Shown one piece after another: positions 9,478-21,548 of a DNA stretch of 21,548 nt. The stretch covers positions 1-21,548 of the IMG/VR virus record IMGVR_UViG_3300042860_001113. One strand, given 5' to 3'. The stretch's first letter is position 1. Each line of letters begins with the position of its first letter. The stretch is from a virus. Under the pieces are notes generated by a model, which saw nothing but the letters and a program-made list of their open reading frames with translations, was not told where the DNA came from and searched no databases. Both the position numbers and the translations under genes were made by a program.

Positions 9478-10284
9478 TTATTTCCAGACGCCAGAGCCGC
9501 CAGGGAAGATGCCCCCCTGCCCGAACAGCGAACCAGCCGCGCCAATGGCGCCAAGCCCCAACCCGCCATAAGTCTGGAGCGGATTGCTGTAGACAGGCTG
9601 GTTAGTGGTTTGAGATCCGCCAAATTGGCCGCCAGCAACCAAAGACGCATAGCGGGCGAGCTTATCTTGCTGCTGCTGATTTTCAGCGTTCCATCGGGCG
9701 ATCTGGTCCTGGATTTCGGCGCCTGCCTGCGCTTCCCTGGCCTGACCGACAGCTGCAAGCTGTCCGATATCGGCATAGTCCTGCATCGCCATTTGAGGCG
9801 CCATGGCGGTAGCGCCCTGCTGCGCCTGCCTTTCGGCTGCATAGTTCTGATACGCAAGTTGCCCGAGCGCGTCAGTCATCCCCAACGAGGCCGCACGCTG
9901 GGCAGACGGAGATCCATACCGACCGGAGGCAGAGAACTGCGCGCTGACCTTGGGGAGGACGCCTTCGGCCACCCGTTCAGTCATGGCCGAAAAGTACGGG
10001 TTCCCCGCCGACAGGTAGTCTCCCGCCATTGTAGACGCTACCTGTTGCTGCGCTTGCCGAGTGAGCGGGCTTCCGGCCATCGCCCTAGTTTCCTGCTGCG
10101 CCAAAGCTGCTTCCGTCTGACCGGAAAGAGGGACTACAGTAGAGGCCGGGAAATACGAAGGCTGCTGCGCTTGGTATTGCTGCTGCGCCTGCGTGAACAC
10201 GTCCTTCAGGTATTCCTGCTGCCCGCTCCAGGGGTCATTAGACTGGGTGACAGTAGTGGTCCCGCTGGGTTTGCTAGTAGACAT
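9478..10284 (-). CDS. Gln/Ala-rich phage tail or ejection protein (268 aa)
   Basis: A 268-aa protein. The N-terminus is Ser/Thr/Gln-rich (TTTVTQSNDPWSGQQEYLKD) and is followed by QAQQQYQAQQPSYFP. The centre carries a conserved-looking segment, SGRYGSPSAQRAASLGMTD, then LAYQNYAAERQAQ. I know the 'SGRYGS...A' motif with a following Tyr/Gln helix from many phage proteins near tail-hub or ejection genes, where they are labelled tail or virion proteins without a proven role. The C-terminus is Gly-rich with a hydrophobic turn (GGLGLGAIGAAGSLFGQGG). The start lies 11 bases inside the 3' end of the GNAT-like gene; AAAGG is about 10 bases upstream. Confidence 0.65.
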   Translation of the reverse strand: MSTSKPSGTTTVTQSNDPWSGQQEYLKDVFTQAQQQYQAQQPSYFPASTVVPLSGQTEAALAQQETRAMAGSPLTRQAQQQVASTMAGDYLSAGNPYFSAMTERVAEGVLPKVSAQFSASGRYGSPSAQRAASLGMTDALGQLAYQNYAAERQAQQGATAMAPQMAMQDYADIGQLAAVGQAREAQAGAEIQDQIARWNAENQQQQDKLARYASLVAGGQFGGSQTTNQPVYSNPLQTYGGLGLGAIGAAGSLFGQGGIFPGGSGVWK

Positions 10285-10684
10285 CTTGGGCCAGCCTTTT
10301 TTCGAGGACTACATGAGTCCGGTGATAATCCTTCAAAACACGTTCCCACCCTGGCCGGCATATGGCCTTGATATTAACGCATCCCTTGGACTTGGCCCAC
10401 TCTTCAATAACTGACAGGTTGCCAACCCAGTTTGACATTCCGACCCCGGTGCAAATGATGATACAGCATTCGCGCCCATTCGGGTAATCGTCCAGTGCGG
10501 TTATAGTCACCGATGTTATCTCAGTATCGGCGCTAACCCACAATTGCCACTCGCCTAGCTCAAGCCGTTCTTTTACAAACGAAGCATCCATAAGGCTAGA
10601 TCGATCAACAGCATCTCTAATTAACCTCTCGACACAAGGCCAAGCTTGCGTGATTTGATCGCGTTTGACGCCAGAGAATACCAT
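10274..10684 (-). CDS. GNAT-like small phage protein
   Basis: A 136-aa protein. The C-terminal half has the layout of a reduced acyltransferase (GNAT) fold: beta-strands (WQLWVSADTEITSVTITAL, then ECCIIICTGVG), a helix (LSVIEEWAKSKGC) and a last strand plus helix ending RPGWERVLKDY and HTHV-like residues before VVLEKRL. Proteins ending 'RPGWERxLKDYxRxxVVLEKxL' are common in short-tailed phages next to virion genes; they may be related to the T7 gp13/DUF2833 group, but I am not sure. The classical acetyl-CoA loop (Q/RxxGxG/A) is not clear, so catalysis is doubtful. The ATG at 10684 has TAAGGC 7 bases before it. The gene starts 64 bases inside the upstream gene, an unusually long overlap here. 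Confidence 0.6.
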   Translation of the reverse strand: MVFSGVKRDQITQAWPCVERLIRDAVDRSSLMDASFVKERLELGEWQLWVSADTEITSVTITALDDYPNGRECCIIICTGVGMSNWVGNLSVIEEWAKSKGCVNIKAICRPGWERVLKDYHRTHVVLEKRLAQDVY

Positions 10685-13664: not shown

Positions 13665-14312
13665 TCACCACACAACGCTGGTGCCGACGCGACCGCCGAC
13701 TTGGACGTTCACGCGCTGGGTCAGAGGGGCGCCATTCCACCGCGCACGCTCGTCTGCCTGTTGCAGCCCAGCAATGGCGCGATCATAGAACCCCATCCAC
13801 ACTTGGATCCGCTCATCGTTCATAATGAACGGCGACGCCTCGATCAACGTCCCGTACAGATATAAATCGGGGTAGTTCGACAGGACCCAGTTCGTAGTAT
13901 TGCTCGCCGAAAGTGCCGGAATCTTCGCATAATAGACAAGCGTTCCGGTATAGGTCGAATCAGGCGACGGGCCAAACTTGAAGCTATCTCCGATGACGGT
14001 GTAGTGCCGAGGTTTGCCGGTTCCGCTCGTGTACGTCGTCTCAAGATCAGACGCTGAAAGATACTCAAGAACTACATTCGGTGCGCCTTGGACAATGAAA
14101 GTCCTAGCCTCAAGGAAATCGGTCGGCAACGCCTCGGTTGCCGAGTTGATCGTGAACGAAGAGTTCGTCGTCTCTTGATGACGAGTGCGAAGGGCCTTGT
14201 TCAGCCTTGATTCATTCAGAGTGATGAAATCAGGGATTTGGGCTGTAAGATCAGGCCGAGCCAGATAGTCGGCGACGGCAGCCTGCAAAGTTGAATAAGT
14301 ATTCAACGCCAT
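13665..14312 (-). CDS. P22 gp4-like head-tail adaptor protein
   Basis: A 215-aa protein, longer than P22 gp4 (166 aa). The N-terminal half is helical with the characteristic 'YLARPDLTAQIPDFITLNE' segment leading into SRLNKALRTRHQE. The middle is beta-rich: LPTDFLEARTFIV, LEYLSASDLE and GKPRHYTVIGDSFKFGP. A helical C-terminal part (YPDLYLYGTLIEASPFIMND) follows. This arrangement is what I know from adaptor proteins that form the ring under the portal in short-tailed phages. P22 gp4 is also described as a peptidoglycan hydrolase; I see no obvious catalytic motif here. AAGGGG lies 8 bases before the ATG. Its position, just before the hub gene, supports the call. Confidence 0.78.
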   Translation of the reverse strand: MALNTYSTLQAAVADYLARPDLTAQIPDFITLNESRLNKALRTRHQETTNSSFTINSATEALPTDFLEARTFIVQGAPNVVLEYLSASDLETTYTSGTGKPRHYTVIGDSFKFGPSPDSTYTGTLVYYAKIPALSASNTTNWVLSNYPDLYLYGTLIEASPFIMNDERIQVWMGFYDRAIAGLQQADERARWNGAPLTQRVNVQVGGRVGTSVVW

Positions 14313-14330: not shown

Positions 14331-15002
14331 TCATCCCGCCGCTGATCGCATCCTGGCCGCTTCTCTCTCGGCAATCGCGTCAGCCTGCGTATAGATATAT
14401 TCGCCGATATGGCCGATGTGCTGCGAAAGCTCTTGGTCGCAAAAAATAGGAATCCCAGCGGCCTTTACTTTCTCACAGAAATATACATCTTCGCCCCTAA
14501 AACCGATACCGTTTTCCATCACCTCAAACATGAAGTACGGCAACTCAATGGCATCATATACGCGCAGGTCAACCAGCTTAACACCGCCGCCGAGATGCTT
14601 TACTTCCACCAGCCCGGCGTCCCCTGGCTCAGTGTAAAGCATTCCGCCATTTTCATTTCCGAGGTGGGCAGTAGGAATGACAGGGCTTTGCCGGCGGGGA
14701 TAATTCACACCAACAATTGGCATGTTGTGCCGCAGCAGGCATTGCAGCGTGTCCCTGGGAAACGTCATGTCCGCATCGAGCCACAATGCATGGGTGGCGT
14801 CCATCTTGAATGCTTCGGCCACAAGACGGTGGCGAACGTCCGGCAGAATAGATCCGTTTACATTTACGACCTCGATTGATTTCTGCCCGCCTTCATATTT
14901 CGCATTGCAGAAATTGGCGATCATGTTGGACAAGGCATATCCGAACCCGGCTTTCCATTCGCCATGAGACGGGACTAGAACTGCGATCTTGATATCGCTC
15001 AT
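14331..15002 (-). CDS. GT-A family glycosyltransferase within the structural operon
   Basis: A 223-aa protein. It begins with the strand and P-loop-like turn of family 2 glycosyltransferases (KIAVLVPSHGEWKAGF) and carries a DxD motif at Asp76-Asp78 within HALWLDADMTFPRDTL. GVNYPRR follows near residue 100, then LGGGVKLVDLRVYDAI and a possible catalytic segment, GFRGEDVYFCEKVKAAGI. It should transfer a sugar from a nucleotide sugar, using a metal bound by the DxD. The acceptor is unknown: the phage DNA, a virion protein or a host surface glycan are all possible. It sits between the adaptor gene and the 106-aa gene and starts by ATGA overlap, so it is expressed with the virion genes. A second such gene lies at the right edge. 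Confidence 0.8.
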   Translation of the reverse strand: MSDIKIAVLVPSHGEWKAGFGYALSNMIANFCNAKYEGGQKSIEVVNVNGSILPDVRHRLVAEAFKMDATHALWLDADMTFPRDTLQCLLRHNMPIVGVNYPRRQSPVIPTAHLGNENGGMLYTEPGDAGLVEVKHLGGGVKLVDLRVYDAIELPYFMFEVMENGIGFRGEDVYFCEKVKAAGIPIFCDQELSQHIGHIGEYIYTQADAIAEREAARMRSAAG

Positions 15003-15319
15003 AGACTGTTGATCCTACCGTTGTGCTGCACTCGAAAAATACTGTTGCTCGGGTCATTGGCCCATCGTTTCCACGCGGCTTGGTCCCGATACCAGCCCTC
15101 TCGGAATGATCGGTTCAGGGCGTCGAGGGGGATCATCGCTTCGAGGCGCATCCCATCGGCCTTTTGACCGCCGACAAGTTCCGATGCAGCTTTCGCCAGA
15201 TTCGCAGTCGGCTCAACATCGTGCTGTTCCTCAATGTATATGCTTCCGTCAGAATCGAAGTGCATATATTCGGCAGTGGTGCCATAGGCATCCAGAAGAC
15301 GTTTGCGCGATCCTTCCAT
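14999..15319 (-). CDS. Conserved phage protein downstream of the capsid gene (106 aa)
   Basis: A 106-aa soluble protein starting MEGSRKRLLDAYGTTAEYMH, with an acidic middle (IYIEEQHDVEPTANLAKAAS). The C-terminal half has PLDALNRSFREGWYRDQAAW followed by KRWANDPSNSIFRV. Small proteins with a 'IP...LNxxxxEGWxxD...W..WLNDPDNRxFRV' pattern occur in head-gene regions of many short-tailed phages. I know no established role; a minor head or head-completion function is inferred from position. The ATG overlaps the stop of the 56-aa gene as TAATG and has AAAGGTG about 7 bases upstream. It is followed by the glycosyltransferase gene with an ATGA overlap. Confidence 0.65.
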   Translation of the reverse strand: MEGSRKRLLDAYGTTAEYMHFDSDGSIYIEEQHDVEPTANLAKAASELVGGQKADGMRLEAMIPLDALNRSFREGWYRDQAAWKRWANDPSNSIFRVQHNGRINSL

Positions 15320-15489
15320 TACTTCACCTTTTCTGCCAGGCCGTTAAAGATTAAATGCTCGGCTGTCGCACGGTCAACCGTGATCAGCGTCCCTGTCGGC
15401 CTGGGCATATCACCCAGCCACGGCATCCCACAAAGAATGCGGACTGTCACACAGTCATCAGAATCTGTAACTTTGAACGGTCTTGCCAT
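15319..15489 (-). CDS. Small phage head-region protein (56 aa)
   Basis: A 56-aa reading frame starting MARPFKVTDSDDCVTVRILC. Its last third, TLITVDRATAEHLIFNGLAE followed by KVK, fits a family of very small phage proteins with 'V-x-V-L...G-x-x-L-x-V-D-x-A-T-A-x-x-L-I-x-x-G-x-A-x' found near head genes (DUF7302-like). The stop overlaps the start of the 106-aa gene as TAATG. What is odd is its upstream region: the ATG lies directly after the T-run of the capsid gene's terminator, and the bases before it are pyrimidine-rich with no Shine-Dalgarno. Translation may therefore depend on coupling, an internal start such as the GTG 13 codons in, or a leaderless message. Confidence 0.6.
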   Translation of the reverse strand: MARPFKVTDSDDCVTVRILCGMPWLGDMPRPTGTLITVDRATAEHLIFNGLAEKVK

Positions 15490-15521
15490 GAAAGAAAAAG
15501 GGGGAGAGTTTCCCCTCCCCC
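15490..15521 (-). terminator. Intrinsic terminator after the major capsid gene
   Basis: On the minus strand a 7-bp stem of GGGGGAG (plus 15515-15521) and CTCCCCC (plus 15500-15506) encloses an 8-base loop and is followed at once by a T-rich run, TTTTTCTTTC (plus 15490-15499). This lies 15 bases after the capsid stop. Position and shape match the partial terminator that follows the capsid gene in T7, which lets capsid message outnumber the downstream messages. Because the rest of the operon continues on the same strand, it is probably leaky. Confidence 0.75.
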
Positions 15522-15535
15522 AATCTCCGCTAATG

Positions 15536-16486
15536 TTAGGTGGTAGTCAGGTCCGCGCAGACGCCGTGAGCGGCTTCGTTACGCATTTCCAGAGTAGCCT
15601 CGACCACCAGAGCCCGCCGGTCAGCATCGCCAGTCTTCGCCAGTTCAAACTGGGTGAACGGGCGATAATAAGCGACGGCCGCCATATCGGGCTGAAGGAC
15701 GAACGCCGACCGCTCGCGCTGGAAGCGGTTCGGGATAACCTTCAGGTCGCCAAAGTCGGAGGCATACAGGGACGCGGCGCCCTGGATGCGATCCATAGCG
15801 ATATTCTGCCGGCTGTTAGCCCGGCCGGTGAAATCGCTAACGCGCTGCTTGTTGACCGGGCCGACCATCAGGATTTCAGGCTCGCCACCAGCGGTGTAAA
15901 CCGACTGGATAACGGACTTGAGGATGGTTTCGGTAAAAGCCCGCATCGAGCCGGCGGTGGCATCGGTAGCCGCCGCAGTGGCAGCAGTAGCCGAAGCGCC
16001 ACCAGTGCCGCGCGAGGCATTGGTGGTCAGCCACGATTCCAGCGAACGCAGGGTGCGGGCGGTAGTGCTGTCGCCAGCGGTATAGCCCTGGTTGCCGGTG
16101 ATGGTGGCTTCCAGATCGCGCTTGATTTCCTTGCTGCGCTTCGCCATCTGGTAGGCCATTTCATTGGCCCGGCCGGCGGCATTAGCGGCGATCTGCGAGC
16201 CAGTGACCACCACATCCTTGCGCAGAATCTGGCAGTAGTTACCGACGCGGGACGTCGGCGCACTGGTCGAGCCGGCGATGATATCGCCTTCGAGCTGGGC
16301 ATTGCTGGTCGAGGCAGAGGCCAGGGAATCAGTCTGCCACTCGTGGAAAACGGCGGACGCCTTGGTCTTAGCCACGGCGGAGATAAAGGGCGTGTCGGCC
16401 GGGCTGATGTTGTAAATGACATCAGTCAGGTCTTCGCGGTTGCCCTTGGCGGTGTAGGTGGTGAAACCACCAGTAACGAGAGCCAT
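15536..16486 (-). CDS. Major capsid protein, SU10/DUF5309 type
   Basis: A 316-aa protein. The N-terminal segment NREDLTDVIYNISPADTPF, followed by ISAVAKTKASAVFHEWQTD, is the signature of the SU10-like major capsid family (DUF5309). Other family features follow: an Asn/Gly/Arg central segment (RVGNYCQILRKDVVVTGSQ), a helical spine stretch (MAYQMAKRSKEIKRDLEATI) and near 230 VGPVNKQRVSDFTG, with a C-terminal strand, ERSAFVLQPDMAAVAYYRPF. It forms the icosahedral shell with an HK97-like fold, assembled on the scaffold encoded just upstream. AAGGAAA lies 7-8 bases before the ATG. A terminator directly follows, as expected for the most abundant virion protein. Confidence 0.88.
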   Translation of the reverse strand: MALVTGGFTTYTAKGNREDLTDVIYNISPADTPFISAVAKTKASAVFHEWQTDSLASASTSNAQLEGDIIAGSTSAPTSRVGNYCQILRKDVVVTGSQIAANAAGRANEMAYQMAKRSKEIKRDLEATITGNQGYTAGDSTTARTLRSLESWLTTNASRGTGGASATAATAAATDATAGSMRAFTETILKSVIQSVYTAGGEPEILMVGPVNKQRVSDFTGRANSRQNIAMDRIQGAASLYASDFGDLKVIPNRFQRERSAFVLQPDMAAVAYYRPFTQFELAKTGDADRRALVVEATLEMRNEAAHGVCADLTTT

Positions 16487-16501
16487 GCTTCAGTTTCCTT
16501 T

Positions 16502-17503
16502 TCAGAGAAGGTCGCGGAATACAGCGGCGGCGTCTTCAACCCGGCCGCTACCCCGCAGGCGATTAAACTTTGCCTCGAAACGCTGCTGGCCCTGCGTCTT
16601 TACGGTCTTAGTGGTTCCCGGCTTCTGAAACTTAGGGGCATCGGCGACTTTCTTCTCGATTCCAGCCTTCTTTTGCATCAGGCTGTCATAGAGAAAAGCC
16701 TTGCGGGCAATCACCAAAGCGCGGTGATCAACAAGGCTGCCAACCTCTTCCTGAGAGTATTTCCCTGAGTTGATAAGATACTCGGCGATAGCTTTCTTTT
16801 CAGAATTGGCTTTCGCCTCGTCCTTCCATTCGGGGATGGCATCAATAGCCAAGCCATACTGTTCCTTCACCATGCTCTGGAACTTCTGGCTATTTTCCTC
16901 TCCCGCCTTCTTGGCAAGATTCGATTGTTCGGCCCTGGCGGCCTGCAATCGAGTCATATGGTCCTCAAAGGCGCGCTGCTGCTTCAGATACTCTACCGGA
17001 TCTTGCTCCAGCAAATCCGCCCCAGGCGGCTTAGGAGCCGTAGACTGCAAAAACGCCGTGATTTGGTTCACGCCATCAGCATATCGCTGCCGTTCTGCGG
17101 CGACTTCGGCCTTGTACGCCTCGATAGCTTTGCGCTCCTCGGCGACGGCCTGGGTCTTCCGCGTGTAATCCGCCTCTCTCTGATAGCCCTTGATTAGCTC
17201 GGATTCGTCAACCTCTACCGACTTGCCGTCAATCTTGACGGTGTACTTACGGGTTTGGGCGGGCTCATCTTCACTATCGTCGTTTTCGGCGGGCTGGTCA
17301 TCTTCGATGGGCTCATCGTCGCCATCTATAGCCGTTTCGACCTCTTCGGCCTCTGCCTCAATTTCACTATTGGGCAGGTCTTCATTGGTTTCCTCTGGCT
17401 GTTCTGCGTTGTCCGCTCCAGAGAGAATTCCGAGCATAGCAGAGGCGGCCACCTCTACAGTTCCGGCGTTGTCAGTGGCGGGAGCCGTGCTGACTTCTGA
17501 CAT
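16502..17503 (-). CDS. Capsid scaffolding protein
   Basis: A 333-aa protein, near the length of P22 gp8 (303 aa). Residues 36-85 are extremely acidic and disordered (for example EAEAEEVETAIDGDDEPIED). Residues 86-105 form a short ordered segment (RKYTVKIDGKSVEVDESELI) that often opens phage scaffolds. Residues ~110-215 are a long coiled coil (QAVAEERKAIEAYKAEVAAE), and the C-terminus is basic (KTVKTQGQQRFEAKFNRLRG), as expected for the capsid-binding end. It guides procapsid assembly and is then lost. It precedes the capsid gene by 15 bases. A strong GGAGG site lies 8 bases before the ATG, inside an AT-rich gap that may hold regulatory sequence. Confidence 0.82.
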   Translation of the reverse strand: MSEVSTAPATDNAGTVEVAASAMLGILSGADNAEQPEETNEDLPNSEIEAEAEEVETAIDGDDEPIEDDQPAENDDSEDEPAQTRKYTVKIDGKSVEVDESELIKGYQREADYTRKTQAVAEERKAIEAYKAEVAAERQRYADGVNQITAFLQSTAPKPPGADLLEQDPVEYLKQQRAFEDHMTRLQAARAEQSNLAKKAGEENSQKFQSMVKEQYGLAIDAIPEWKDEAKANSEKKAIAEYLINSGKYSQEEVGSLVDHRALVIARKAFLYDSLMQKKAGIEKKVADAPKFQKPGTTKTVKTQGQQRFEAKFNRLRGSGRVEDAAAVFRDLL

Positions 17504-17570
17504 TAATGTGGCCTCCGATATCTATGCAATATGTTATGCTACTATAACTAACAACATGGAGGCAAGAAGT
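17504..17570 (-). promoter_or_regulatory. AT-rich gap with an inverted repeat before the scaffold gene
   Basis: This 67-base spacer is the largest gap in the head region and is clearly AT-richer than the genes around it. It contains an inverted repeat, GTTAT (plus 17533-17537) and ATAAC (plus 17544-17548), around a 6-base loop, and TGTTA/TAACA arms just outside. It also holds the scaffold gene's GGAGG site. Promoter-like hexamers occur (TTGTTA, TTATAG, CATATT), but no pair has good match and spacing together. It could be a late promoter or an operator for scaffold and capsid expression. Confidence 0.3.
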
Positions 17571-17843
17571 CTAAAAGAAGCGCCTGCGCCCCCTCAATTC
17601 TTCTTGCTGCTTTTTCGACATTTTACCTGTGTACACGACAGTCTCAAGATGGGCGCGGACCTTAGCCAAGCTTTGCAAGTGCGCCCAAATCCTTTCGCGG
17701 CCTTCTACGTCTCGAGCCGGGGCGCCTTCCCACGCTGCGATATATTCTGATCGAATTAGGTCGAATGCTTCCGCGATCAGCGGGTTGCGCAGAAGCCTTT
17801 CGGCGTTGTCGCCACGATTGATTTCGTCCAGCGGGTCACTCAT
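17571..17843 (-). CDS. Conserved small phage protein near portal/scaffold (90 aa)
   Basis: A 90-aa helical protein starting MSDPLDEINRGDNAERLLRN. The middle segment NPLIAEAFDLIRSEYIAAWE, followed by APARDVEGRERIWAHLQSL and KVRAHLETVVYTGKM, fits a family of small proteins ('L-x-N-P-x-x-x-x-A-F-x-x-x-x-x-x...W-x-x-T-x-x-x-D-x-x-x-R-E-x-x-x...L-x-x-H-L-E-x') that I know from between portal and scaffold genes of short-tailed phages. Its role is not established. I chose the ATG at 17843, which lies inside the end of the upstream 50-aa gene (8-base overlap) and has GGAGGG about 10 bases before it; the longer frame is a shadow of that gene. The C-terminus is very basic (RGRRRFF). Confidence 0.7.
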   Translation of the reverse strand: MSDPLDEINRGDNAERLLRNPLIAEAFDLIRSEYIAAWEGAPARDVEGRERIWAHLQSLAKVRAHLETVVYTGKMSKKQQEELRGRRRFF

Positions 17844-17988
17844 TAGAACAATTCCCTCCACCGAACGGCAGCCGCCAAGGCTGGTCATCCTCGGCGATGA
17901 CCAGGACGCCACGCTCTTGCCAGCCATCCCGCTTGACCTGCTCAGGATCGCGGCGGGGGCCACCGTAACCGGGAGTGTGCCAGTTCAT
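17836..17988 (-). CDS. Small phage protein between resolvase and 90-aa gene (50 aa)
   Basis: A 50-aa frame starting MNWHTPGYGGPRRDPEQVKR, with the core DGWQERGVLVIAEDD followed by QPWRLPF. An ideal Shine-Dalgarno, AAGGAGGT, lies 5 bases before its ATG, the ATG overlaps the resolvase stop as ATGA, and its own stop overlaps the next gene by 8 bases. These three facts make it very likely to be translated. The 'DPEQVKRDGWxExGVLVV...DD' pattern recalls small phage proteins with a C-terminal DNA-binding-like helix, but that helix is absent here, so I assign no function. Confidence 0.7.
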   Translation of the reverse strand: MNWHTPGYGGPRRDPEQVKRDGWQERGVLVIAEDDQPWRLPFGGGNCSNE

Positions 17989-18635
17989 CGCACACCTCCT
18001 TCGGTGTCGATGGCCCAGGTCAGGATGGCCAGAGCGTCGGCCTCGTTGTCGTCTTCAGGGTTGAAGCCTTTGGCCCGCATGGCGGCGATAACCGCGTCCT
18101 TGCCAGCATTACCCTTGCCAGTGGCGTGACGCTTGATGGTGCCGACTGGCAGGCCCTGATAGGGGATGTGGTTCAGTTCACACCAAGCCGAGAGATGAGC
18201 CAGGAAGCCGCCATAGATGTGGGCGGCATCGGTTCCGGCGTGGCGGCGGACTTCCTCGAAATATACCGCGCTGATGCCCTTGGCGCCGCCCAGCAGGTGG
18301 TCGAGCCAGGAACGGAAGCGCAGGTAGCGCATGCCGCCGCCTTCGAAGCGACCGGGGCGGAACTTCATGGTGCCGGAGACAGTGGCGCCGTCGGCAAGGC
18401 GCATGGCCCAGCCGGTGGTGGTGCCCAGGTCGAGGGCCAGCAGGCCGCGCCCACCTCGGCAAAGGGCGTGACCAGCGTCCGACGCCATGGTGTAAGGAAG
18501 ATTGGCGACGGGGACGCGATAGCCGCCAATGGTCATGAGGCGGGGGGTTGTCTCCAACAACTCGGCACCGTCCTTATGGTGCTTGCTCTCGATGGCCGCG
18601 CCTTCGGCCTGTAGGGCGGCGTGGTCTGTAATCAT
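17985..18635 (-). CDS. RuvC-like Holliday junction resolvase with N-terminal extension
   Basis: A 216-aa protein. Residues 64-210 form an RNase H-fold resolvase of the phage RuvC kind. The first catalytic Asp (D69) is in LLALDLGTTTGWA, the Glu pair is in AVYFEEVRR (E127/E128), and the last acidic residues are in EDDNEADALAIL (D196, E198, D200). The segment VGTIKRHATGKGNAGKDAVI is highly typical. It should cut four-way DNA junctions, probably to trim branched phage DNA before packaging. The first ~63 residues are extra relative to the usual phage RuvC; they include TIGGYRVPVANLPYTMASD, which I do not recognise as a known domain. The ATG at 18635 overlaps the micro-ORF stop as ATGA. An internal Met50 start is possible but has no clear ribosome site. 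Confidence 0.82.
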   Translation of the reverse strand: MITDHAALQAEGAAIESKHHKDGAELLETTPRLMTIGGYRVPVANLPYTMASDAGHALCRGGRGLLALDLGTTTGWAMRLADGATVSGTMKFRPGRFEGGGMRYLRFRSWLDHLLGGAKGISAVYFEEVRRHAGTDAAHIYGGFLAHLSAWCELNHIPYQGLPVGTIKRHATGKGNAGKDAVIAAMRAKGFNPEDDNEADALAILTWAIDTEGGVR

Positions 18636-18673
18636 TTGCGCTTCCCGCCCTTCTTTTTGCTGCTACAGCCCAT
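18632..18673 (-). CDS. 13-codon basic micro-ORF between portal and resolvase
   Basis: This frame encodes MGCSSKKKGGKRK. It starts 14 bases after the portal stop, with AAGGGG about 10 bases before the ATG, and ends with TGA overlapping the resolvase start as ATGA. The Gly-Cys start and Lys-rich tail are unusual. It may be a real micropeptide, or a leader that couples portal translation to the resolvase. I recall similar tiny Lys/Cys peptides near portal genes in other short-tailed phages, but cannot confirm that here. Confidence 0.4.
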   Translation of the reverse strand: MGCSSKKKGGKRK

Positions 18674-18687
18674 GATATCGCATCCCC

Positions 18688-20745
18688 TTATCCGATCTGC
18701 CCACCCATGCGGATATCGCCAACGCCAGCCCCGGAAGCCAGCCCGGATGCTTTAAGCTGGGCTTCCATCATCATTTGCTCACGCTTCAATGCCATTTCGG
18801 CCATCATCCGCTCATGAGCCAGCGTCATTTCAGCCTGCATTTTCTCGCGACCCAGGGCTATATCGCGGTCAATCCGCGCTCGCTCTACCTGCGCATCGAG
18901 TTGAATCTTTGCTTGATCGGCAGCCGCCTTGCGCTGAACATCAGCCATCAAAGGATCAGGGGGCGGCGGCTTTTGCTGCTGCCCCTGGATGCCATCAACC
19001 GCCCCAGGGTCCTTGAAATACAGCGACGGGTCGCCGAGGCCAGCGTTAGTAATCATCGCCTTGAGCGTGTTGTGATATTCGCCCATGCCAACTAACGGGT
19101 TGTCAGGCCCGGCAATCTGGAGGATAGCCTCTTGCTTGGCCGCCACCGCCATAAGATGCCCCAGCTGGGAATCCTTGTTCCCAGTCCCGAGGCCGACATT
19201 GATTTTCACGTCCATGTCAGCCGACCAGCCGCGAGGATCGATAGGCACCCATTCGTTGCGCAGCCGAATGACGGTTTCCTTGTCCTGATACTGCGTGATG
19301 AATTTCAAGATCAGACGGAACAGTCTCTTATACCCCACCTCGGCGAAAATGCGGGCGATCAGTTCGACGCGCTGCTTTGCCATATCAGTCTGGCCTGCAA
19401 ACGCAGTAGCAGACACGTTCTGCAAAGCATTTGCATCAGGCCCCATTCCCTGCGGAGACGCCCCTGACCGCTCCTGGCGCACGGCGTCGATGTATTGGAT
19501 CATGGGGAAAGCCTGGGCACCAACCCATGCTGTCTGAATTTCCCGCATCATGCCGGGGGCCTTGACGCGGACCACGCCACCGGGGCGGTGCGTCAGCAGG
19601 TCATCGAGGTTCACTTGGCCGTCTACAATCTCGGTGCGCGGATTGTTCGACAGATACAGCCCGTCGAGCATCTGACGCAGGATCACTGACTTAATGCGCT
19701 GAATGTCCATCACTAGATCAGCGACGGAGCGGCCCCAGAAGGTATGCGGCATGAGGATGGGCGATAACGAGGCAAACGGAACACAATCAAGCGGCCATTC
19801 CTCATTGTCCAGGATCTCGCCTGAAGCATCGTCTCCGCCACTCAGGACCTTGCGCCATTCGGCCACGCCGTCGCCATCATAATCGACCTTGAGATAGCAT
19901 TCGCAGACGGACACCTGTTGCATGATCGGGTCAAGGCTGTCATTGGTCGAGGCATCGCCCCGGAACCGCGCCAGCTTCTCGCCGCTATAGTCATTCGCGC
20001 TGTAGGTCGGCAGGCTATAGACGATATCCTCGTCATATCCCTGCTCAATCAGTTCATTGCGGGTAACAATCTTGCGATGGCCGACGAACGTAGCGTCATC
20101 CAGAGACTTGGCGCGGGCCGACAAGATGAACTCTTCCGGCGGAACGCCTTGGATGCAAACCTCGCCTTCAGTCTCTTCCCATTTGGCCTTGATCGAGTGC
20201 AGCGGAATGCTAGTGCCGTCCGGCAGTTCCATCTTTTCGACAGAATGGCCGATGATCTTGGCGTCTTCCGGCAGGCTGGAAATATAGAGCGCAAATTCAT
20301 CGTCAGTTAAGCCGGAACGCTCGTCAACCTCGACTTTTGTTTCTTTCTCCCACCACACCTTGATAACGCCAACACGCTGCAAAAGCGCATCTTTCTGCCA
20401 GTTATATTGCAGCAAGAACGAGTTGTTCTTCTCAATGATGTAGTTGGCGTAATCGGTAGCCTGCTCAGCAACCTTCTCGTCTTCAGGGCCGGTAGGAAGG
20501 AACTCAACCACCTTATCGCCAGACGCGAAGATGCGCATAAGCGCGGGCAAAATCCACTCGATGGTGTCCGCAACGTCCCGGCTGACAACCTGGGACCGGC
20601 CCTCGATCTCGTCGCCGTATGGCTCTCCCATGTAGTAGCGAAGCGCCTCTTCACGGTCCTGCGATTGCCATTCATCGCAATACGCTGCTGCCTGAGCAAC
20701 CTCATGCTGGACGATAGACTTCAGCTCGTTGTCAGACAGTTTCAT
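18688..20745 (-). CDS. Portal protein, P22-like
   Basis: A 685-aa protein, close to P22 gp1 (725 aa). The N-terminal part has SQDREEALRYYMGEPYGDE and a Gly-Arg-Ser segment (EGRSQVVSRDVADTIEWILP), both typical of P22-type portals. The central part includes VGVIKVWWEKETKVE, PPEEFILSARAKSLDD, PHTFWGRSVADLVMDIQRI and RQMLDGLYLSNNPRTEI. The Gln/Pro linker at ~607-622 (QGQQQKPPPPDP) is followed by a C-terminal helical barrel-like coil of ~60 residues, unusually rich in Met (EKMQAEMTLAHERMMAEMAL). It forms the dodecameric ring at one vertex through which DNA enters and leaves. GGGGAA lies about 9 bases before the ATG. Confidence 0.9.
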   Translation of the reverse strand: MKLSDNELKSIVQHEVAQAAAYCDEWQSQDREEALRYYMGEPYGDEIEGRSQVVSRDVADTIEWILPALMRIFASGDKVVEFLPTGPEDEKVAEQATDYANYIIEKNNSFLLQYNWQKDALLQRVGVIKVWWEKETKVEVDERSGLTDDEFALYISSLPEDAKIIGHSVEKMELPDGTSIPLHSIKAKWEETEGEVCIQGVPPEEFILSARAKSLDDATFVGHRKIVTRNELIEQGYDEDIVYSLPTYSANDYSGEKLARFRGDASTNDSLDPIMQQVSVCECYLKVDYDGDGVAEWRKVLSGGDDASGEILDNEEWPLDCVPFASLSPILMPHTFWGRSVADLVMDIQRIKSVILRQMLDGLYLSNNPRTEIVDGQVNLDDLLTHRPGGVVRVKAPGMMREIQTAWVGAQAFPMIQYIDAVRQERSGASPQGMGPDANALQNVSATAFAGQTDMAKQRVELIARIFAEVGYKRLFRLILKFITQYQDKETVIRLRNEWVPIDPRGWSADMDVKINVGLGTGNKDSQLGHLMAVAAKQEAILQIAGPDNPLVGMGEYHNTLKAMITNAGLGDPSLYFKDPGAVDGIQGQQQKPPPPDPLMADVQRKAAADQAKIQLDAQVERARIDRDIALGREKMQAEMTLAHERMMAEMALKREQMMMEAQLKASGLASGAGVGDIRMGGQIG

Positions 20746-20781
20746 GACGCGCGTTCCCCATCGAAAGGCAGCAGAACAATA

Positions 20782-21548
20782 TCACGAAAGGCCGTTAACT
20801 ACATACGTAGATTTTTCCATGGCCTTGATGTATCCGGCATCAGGATCGCCGGCAGCCGTACTGTACATTTCCTGCCAGTGATCGGCCATGCTTTCGCGCC
20901 ATTCGTCCTTTTCCGACATTCCTGCGATGATGCCTGACCGATCAGGCATTTCTCTCCCATATAGATGCTCATGAATTCTACGAGCCTCTTCGACCCGCAG
21001 GCACCTCGTCTTGTGGAAGACGGAATACCAATGCCGCAGCTCGCGCATTCTTGGCGTCCCGGTCCCTTTGTCTCCGGTTAGCTTTAGCCCGGTCAAGCAG
21101 GCGATGGGGTGTCCGGTGGCGATCTCTACTACCTCGGCAAGCCAGAAGTCATCAAACCAAAATGGGAACCGCCCGGCCGTAAACACCCCGCCAGCCGCTT
21201 CCACCCATTCCCGCGTGAGGATAGGATAAGCCGGGTCTTCGCTGCGATGCGTCCAGCAATAGACCGGCTGATTGTGGATGGCATGAGCCGACTTAAGCAG
21301 GCTATCCCACCCCCTGAGCTCAGGGTAGACATCGTCTGCCAGGACGCAGTAAAGGCCTGCGTCAACCATTGTTGACAGCGCATTGTGGCTATCGCCGAGG
21401 GCATCCGGGCGCTGCCCGACATTCACCACCACCCTTCCGCCCATAAAGCCCCTCACGACATCTATGCTTGGCGTCACGTCGTCGTCGTCGATCCATACTG
21501 CGGCCGTGATGTCTTCCGGGCTGTCAGCCGTGTCAAACAGGCGCTGCA
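20782..21548 (-). CDS. Glycosyltransferase-like protein, 5' end cut by window edge
   Basis: The reading frame is open to the right edge; 254 residues are visible and the start is beyond the window. A GTG at 21477 exists but lies directly after VWIDDDD, a segment that looks like the DxD metal site of GT-A glycosyltransferases, so the real protein starts upstream. The visible order is DDDD, GRVVVNVGQRPDALGDSHNA, YCVLADDVYPELRGWDSLL, then RFPFWFDDFWLAEVVEIATG. The C-terminal 80 residues are helical and charged. It probably transfers a sugar to an unknown acceptor. It lies just upstream of the portal gene, where terminase genes usually are, so the terminase should be beyond the edge. GT family membership is from motifs only. 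Confidence 0.65.
   Translation of the reverse strand, partial: QRLFDTADSPEDITAAVWIDDDDVTPSIDVVRGFMGGRVVVNVGQRPDALGDSHNALSTMVDAGLYCVLADDVYPELRGWDSLLKSAHAIHNQPVYCWTHRSEDPAYPILTREWVEAAGGVFTAGRFPFWFDDFWLAEVVEIATGHPIACLTGLKLTGDKGTGTPRMRELRHWYSVFHKTRCLRVEEARRIHEHLYGREMPDRSGIIAGMSEKDEWRESMADHWQEMYSTAAGDPDAGYIKAMEKSTYVVNGLS

Follow-up and report, generated by a model that had tools for sequence, protein, structure and literature searches.

A glycosyltransferase gene in the head operon of an SU10-type podovirus and its relatives: a candidate for virion glycosylation

Introduction

Phage-encoded glycosyltransferases (GTs) and glycosylated phage virions are already known. In tailed phages, virion glycosylation with an effect on immune recognition has been reported for mycobacteriophages, according to parts of two articles (PMC11256854, PMC12619734). 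Che8 and Rita carry glycans on their major capsid proteins and encode GTs of their own (Freeman 2023, as cited in PMC11256854 and PMC12619734), and in Maravista, a related F1 phage, the GTs lie near the 3' end of the genome, as stated in part of PMC11256854. For STIV, part of PMC10551542 describes A197 as a GT that the virus cannot do without; the capsid protein of this virus is glycosylated, and the acceptor of A197 is unproven.

Here, we analyzed a contig of an uncultured bacterial virus, an SU10-type podovirus, which carries two GT-like genes. The contig is the whole IMG/VR record IMGVR_UViG_3300042860_001113 with a length of 21548 bases and is referred to as the window.

Results

The late operon on the minus strand of the window has the order GT2, portal, RuvC-like resolvase, a small ORF, scaffold, major capsid protein (MCP), 106-aa ORF, GT1, adaptor and further virion genes (Table 1). 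A sequence-only reading of this DNA had placed two GT-like genes on the late strand among head genes, one between a capsid-associated gene and the adaptor and the other ahead of the portal. Both ORFs are found at the coordinates given there, and the neighbours are the SU10 portal, MCP, scaffold and adaptor. The tight packing described in the same reading was confirmed as well: besides the overlap given in Table 1, only 18 nt separate the end of GT1 from the adaptor and 36 nt the end of GT2 from the portal. As contig L002 repeats the stretch from portal to adaptor with 99.98% identity over 6123 nt, misassembly is an unlikely cause of the gene order around GT1.

Table 1. Features of the late operon discussed in the text (window positions)
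Feature	Position	Strand	Basis
GT1, GT-A glycosyltransferase (predicted), 223 aa, ATG start	14331..15002	minus	ORF, phrog_1574, conserved residues, AF2 model, VIA-align
GT1 residue codons	D76 14777-14775; D78 14771-14769; E171/D172 14492-14487; H198 14411-14409	minus	
GT2, probable GT-A-type glycosyltransferase, C-terminal 254 of about 274 aa	20782..21546	minus	open at contig edge; phrog_14945, alignment, weak model
Small conserved ORF, 106 aa	14999..15319	minus	phrog_3982; stop overlaps GT1 start by 4 nt
Major capsid protein (MCP)	15536..16486	minus	SU10_MCP E 6e-96
Head-tail adaptor	13665..14312	minus	SU10_adaptor E 1.3e-37
Portal	18688..20745	minus	SU10_portal E 6e-214
Scaffold protein	16502..17503	minus	phrog_3927 E 4e-61
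Terminator-like hairpin and T-run, between MCP and the small ORF, GT1 and adaptor genes	15500..15521	minus	consensus match

The hairpin downstream of the MCP gene has the most pairs among the ten terminator-like sites of the window, but since 7.8 such sites (sd 2.6) are expected from shuffled sequences, we regard it as a consensus match only. The RuvC-like resolvase between portal and scaffold (17985-18635) resembles phrog_4771 (DHH phosphoesterase) in residues 4-61 and the RuvC-like phrog_159 in residues 66-213. A 136-aa ORF (10274-10684, phrog_25629) lies between a glycine-rich late protein and a relative of DNA-ejection proteins, and the contig end (1-295) is a tandem repeat of the hexamer CGGGGT in 49 copies, which can be read as repeated Arg-Gly in the frame of the ORF that comes next. 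No DNA near-match of the window was detected among named phages, Rfam (gathering scores) and tRNA scans of the window found nothing, and NCBIfam gave nothing above a cut-off.

GT1 matches phrog_1574 with an E-value of 4.3e-13. Its score against Pfam Anp1 (PF03452) is 17.3 bits (E 0.0033) and under the cut-off of 28.8, while the relative in contig L098 reaches 39.1 bits and exceeds it. Conservation was analyzed in 118 partly duplicate GT1 rows (71 from the slot between MCP and adaptor, 14 from L004-L015 and 33 from L098-L123, with some contigs repeated) and in a hand-picked, less redundant subset of 29 rows (alignment A4). In the subset, R57, D76, D78, P82, E171, D172, F175 and H198 are invariant. 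In the complete set, R57, D76, D78, D172 and H198 are present in every row with a letter at the position, and E171 in 114 of 115. The DxD motif, the acidic catalytic pair and the C-terminal metal histidine presumably have the same roles as in other GT-A enzymes.

The AlphaFold (AF2) model of GT1 has a pLDDT of 95.1 and a pTM of 0.91, and the structure comparison yielded a GT-A fold. The best VIA-align match is STIV A197 (PDB 2c0n; Z 19.4, 170 residues, rmsd 2.3, 18% identity), followed by LH3 (Z 18.3; residues 293-519, which we take to be an accessory GT-like domain and not the catalytic one), Mnn9 (17.2), mimivirus R699 (16.7) and COLGALT1 (15.9); SpsA reaches a Z of 13.5. Profile searches recovered Mnn9 as best match in the PDB (E 3e-6) and STIV A197 with an E-value of 1.6e-5. 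A viral structure library returned 175 matches at E ≤ 0.001, and the first 50, counted by name, comprise 25 glycosyltransferase-type, 14 uncharacterised, seven unnamed and four other proteins. GT1 shows no membrane-like segment (the hydropathy mean over 19 residues peaks at 0.79). The dS values of three GT1 pairs were above 1.9 or not computable. Taken together, the predicted fold and the conserved residues support well the classification of GT1 as a GT-A glycosyltransferase with the residues of a metal site.

GT2 is cut by the contig edge. The window fragment matches phrog_14945 with an E-value of 2.5e-4, the full-length relative in L016 with 5.6e-7, and nine of the ten aligned members do so at E ≤ 0.1. 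The missing N-terminus, about 20 residues beyond position 21548, is present in L016-L019, and the large-terminase gene immediately precedes GT2 there (Terminase_6N was found in both of the two contigs scanned); GT2 lies between large terminase and portal in these relatives. The full-length proteins begin with an IASRGRP motif, which we assume to be typical of GT-A enzymes. D39, D41, D42, D90, D151, D152 and an FPFWFDD block are invariant in the ten-row alignment, but in the would-be DxD the residue after D90 is not conserved and is R or K in L098, L138 and L142.

The AF2 model of the L016 relative is weak (pLDDT 61). Its top five VIA rows are all GT-A enzymes (Z 8.5-10.6, N-terminal half only) with AvpGT in first place (Z 10.6, 104 residues), and other Rossmann-like folds reach a Z of 8.4 in one case and 7.6 or less in the rest. 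With the same model, Foldseek found nothing at E ≤ 0.001 and ranked other Rossmann-like folds first. GT2 profiles searched against PDB sequences gave nothing at E ≤ 1 with five rows, and with ten rows the best match was a glucosyltransferase over 40 residues (E 0.19). The L016 protein shows no membrane-like segment (highest 19-residue hydropathy mean 1.19). A dN/dS of 0.10/1.09 against L017 indicates purifying selection on GT2; in the other two pairs dS was above 1.9 or not computable. GT2 is probably a GT-A glycosyltransferase too, judged from its alignment and model. The identity proposed for the two genes in the sequence-only reading consequently stands for GT1 and is moderate for GT2, where about 100 residues of a weak model match GT-A enzymes and the residue after D90 varies. 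GT2 is also rare: besides L016-L019 it was found only in L098, one of 29 records searched, and tblastn detected none in named phages. A common descent of GT1 and GT2 was considered, but an hhalign probability of 32.5% (E 0.0005 in a single comparison, 59 columns) is insufficient to show it.

To describe the position of GT1 in SU10-type relatives, we used the best 80 of at least 550 confirmed capsid loci, ranked by nearness to the window MCP. In 69 of these 80 loci, GT1 follows the MCP gene and has the adaptor or the end of the contig after it; in the other 11, the slot lacks GT1. Most of the 69 belong to one crowded cluster. At 80% capsid identity, GT1 is carried by five of nine clusters and missing from four; including L003, which was itself found through GT1, the count is six of ten. 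In six of the 11 loci lacking GT1, BLAST identified a relative of the 106-aa ORF beside the adaptor, three more have an ORF of similar size but without BLAST match beside it, and none is listed for L088 and L089. The 106-aa ORF of L020 had no Pfam match. GT1 therefore looks like a unit that can be inserted or lost at this junction.

Where present, GT1 diverges together with its neighbours. Across 11 carriers (L019, in which GT1 is cut, was left out), the Mantel r was 0.95 for GT1 and MCP, with none of 5000 permutations as high, 0.94 for GT1 and adaptor and 0.92 for MCP and adaptor. This is the pattern that long joint inheritance of GT1 and the head genes would produce.

Twelve named phage regions were opened, and GT1 is present in ctyzp037, Mel-JY34 and ctkAd229, the last two having been opened because GT1 matched them. 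In Microcystis phage Mel-JY34 (PP438425), GT1 is located directly after the capsid gene. The other nine (phiM5, MJing1, ppBeUSDA76-2, HTVC106P, Venkman, RHph_I1_23, DB virus 2, PaP3 and the metagenomic ctXG6705) have neither an annotated GT in the slot nor a GT1 tblastn match. Its absence from 11 of the 80 nearest loci and from nine of 12 named phage regions indicates that the head can do without GT1. Inspection by eye of a 28-row capsid alignment of carriers and non-carriers revealed no carrier-specific insertion or Ser/Thr-rich loop.

Some loci have additional genes in this region. In Sinorhizobium phage phiM5 (L124 6346-7656), a GDSL/SGNH hydrolase that is annotated as detected in particles fills the slot between MCP and adaptor. 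L024 (8655-11648) has extra ORFs between GT1 and adaptor, encoding a 187-aa protein, a 475-aa Ser/Thr-rich protein and a 331-aa Gly-rich protein, and L025 has the same layout, judged from equal spacing. The 187-aa ORF, which follows GT1, had no Pfam, PHROG or PDB match; by eye the protein resembles GT42 sialyltransferases, a likeness that these searches did not support. The extra ORFs of L024 could possibly represent a further glycan enzyme together with acceptors.

Outside the SU10 set, 30 GT1 loci were collected, 29 of them through GT1 and L098 through GT2, including some near-duplicates. A recognised head or packaging gene lies within 5 kb in 19 of the 30 loci and on both sides in 15, while the queries used recognised no head gene nearby in 11. 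Without a background rate, these neighbour counts carry little weight by themselves; the recurrence of exactly the same slots weighs more. In L098, which has an epsilon15-like head (MCP GP7 E 2e-126; portal phrog_332 E 1.7e-151), the order is portal, GT2, GT1, protease/scaffold and MCP, with GT2 and GT1 side by side. In MW202691, P22_CoatProtein (E 1.5e-31) is located upstream of a GT1 relative (tblastn E 5e-8, 24.8% identity), which abuts P22_Tail-4, a tail accessory factor gene (E 1e-9), on its downstream side. A group of HK97-type contigs has the order TerL, GT1, portal, protease and MCP. The head modules that contain GT1 span four families of capsid protein (SU10, epsilon15-like, P22-like and HK97-like).

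According to phmmer, a Methyltransf_24/TylF-like domain accompanies GT1 in 17 of the 30 non-SU10 loci, fused to it in 12 and adjacent in five, and Pfam recovered Methyltransf_24 in all eight of these 17 loci that were scanned. L010 and L014 have a methyltransferase of another class beside GT1, and L122 a second glycosyltransferase domain and no methyltransferase. The neighbour-ORF alignment (A6) lists 67 of 147 ORFs. In the window, no methyltransferase lies beside GT1. An O-methylated sugar would be the natural reading of the pairing in the relatives.

Relatives of GT2 also occur in five bacterial contigs (L138-L142), none of which matched a glycosyltransferase Pfam family in the GT2 relative. 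In L138 (3087-6870), a contig of an alphaproteobacterial MAG, a TPR-Glyco_transf_41 protein (717 aa, E 1e-92) is followed by a 212-aa ORF and, about 750 nt downstream of the first gene, by the GT2 relative (29% identity). The Glyco_transf_41 family contains protein O-glycosyltransferases, and the stretch is possibly a protein-glycosylation locus. In L141, an epimerase gene (Epimerase E 6e-44) is located near the GT2 relative.

Discussion

We consider late cytoplasmic glycosylation of a virion protein by GT1, together with GT2 where present, to be the best reading of this locus, with a probability of about 0.6. The particles of these viruses may carry a sugar coat of their own, which could serve in shielding of the particle or in adhesion. 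GT1 would be a soluble cytoplasmic GT-A enzyme made from the late head operon, probably translated together with the small upstream ORF through the 4-nt stop/start overlap. During head assembly it would move a sugar from a host nucleotide-sugar, via a metal held by D76, D78 and H198, onto a virion protein. GT2 may prime or extend the same glycan, and in related phages the sugar would be capped by the methyltransferase that occurs in fusion with GT1 or beside it. The hairpin after the MCP gene may lower the expression of GT1 relative to the capsid, which would suit an enzyme acting on abundant structural proteins. A place in the late operon falls short of proof of action on virions, and a shared fold shows no function. 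The proposal of the sequence-only reading that late expression suits sugar addition to virion proteins has gained from the kept place beside the capsid gene and from the four capsid families, but it is still an inference as to acceptor and sugar.

The same genes might act on other targets. One alternative is that they alter the surface glycans of the host, or the precursors of these, late in infection, for instance so that superinfection is blocked or progeny do not re-adsorb. TarP, TarS and RmlT, which are wall teichoic acid enzymes, are among the lower structural matches of GT1 (Z 13-14), RmlT is also among those of GT2, and the bacterial relative of GT2 in L141 lies near an epimerase gene of sugar-nucleotide type. 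On the other hand, neither GT1 nor GT2 has a membrane-like segment, no flippase or lipid-carrier enzyme was recognised among the ten window ORFs scanned, which represent part of the genome only, and the place of GT1 beside the capsid gene is conserved, so that we regard a host-surface target as unlikely. The soluble nature of the enzyme and the neighbourhood of the bacterial relative in L138 are hints in favour of a virion protein. Even less probable is a moron scenario, in which the late operon carries GT1 and GT2 as genes of differing function with no shared target, GT2 being an occasional insertion at the junction of terminase and portal. The presence of GT2 in few relatives would fit, as would the fact that the slot between MCP and adaptor takes other genes too, such as the phiM5 hydrolase, but GT1 co-diverges with MCP, and GT2 and GT1 are adjacent in L098.

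Glycosylation of the phage DNA as a shield against host nucleases is very improbable in our view. Hypermodification of DNA by phage GTs has been described (Pyle 2024, as cited in part of PMC12619734), but the genes of this virus are placed in the head operon, and the thymidylate synthase/dCMP-hydroxymethylase family PF00303 was found in none of 33 records (including 28 GT1 carriers and several records of 38-50 kb), while the control was positive in nine of 14 genomes. A search for TET/JBP (PF12851) was negative in all 33 records, but as its control was silent too, it carries no weight.

Extending virion glycosylation to the relatives, we propose more tentatively, at slightly less than even odds, that GT1 belongs to a widespread decoration cassette of tailed-phage virions: an A197-like GT, often with a sugar methyltransferase and sometimes with a second transferase, which is located in the head operon and inherited with the capsid gene across capsid families. 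If this is true, sugar-coated and partly methylated phage particles would be common in nature and not a rarity. The earlier remark that glycosylated capsids or fibres are known in a few phages only may hold as far as experiments have proved them, but among the uncultured relatives covered here it is common to find GT1 inside the head region. If a GT accompanies the capsid gene in several capsid families, gene order would suffice to predict the trait. This would have a bearing on phage adhesion to surfaces, persistence and recognition by the immune system, and Microcystis phage Mel-JY34 offers a test case with a named host. In the literature searched, we found no paper on a GT in the slot between capsid and adaptor or on a GT with an FkbM methyltransferase in a phage capsid context, which does not prove absence from print. 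Nor did these searches yield a description of a GT family that occurs in the head operons of several capsid families, is inherited with the capsid gene and is paired with a methyltransferase.

Compared with known systems, GT1 and GT2 differ from the gtr-type O-antigen sets, which contain a membrane-anchored GT, in their low hydropathy maxima (0.79 and 1.19 over 19 residues), and no gtr-type partner (flippase, bactoprenol glucosyltransferase) was recognised among the window ORFs scanned, which cover part of the genome. The PHROG families matched by GT1 (phrog_1574, unknown function) and GT2 (phrog_14945, glycosyltransferase) are annotation clusters, whose name is not a tested function. Mnn9/Anp1, LH3, COLGALT1 and mimivirus R699 are the structural matches of GT1 next after A197 (Z 15.9-18.3), but they are eukaryotic or giant-virus enzymes, and the window protein stays under the Anp1 cut-off. 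With the mycobacteriophages Che8 and Rita, this virus shares the phage-encoded GTs; unlike here, those of Maravista are found near the 3' end of the genome, and no mycobacteriophage is among the nine records matched by GT1 in tblastn. STIV A197 originates from an archaeal virus of another kind, has 18% identity and may differ from GT1 in donor and acceptor, but it is the best fold match and, like GT1, a small single-domain viral GT.
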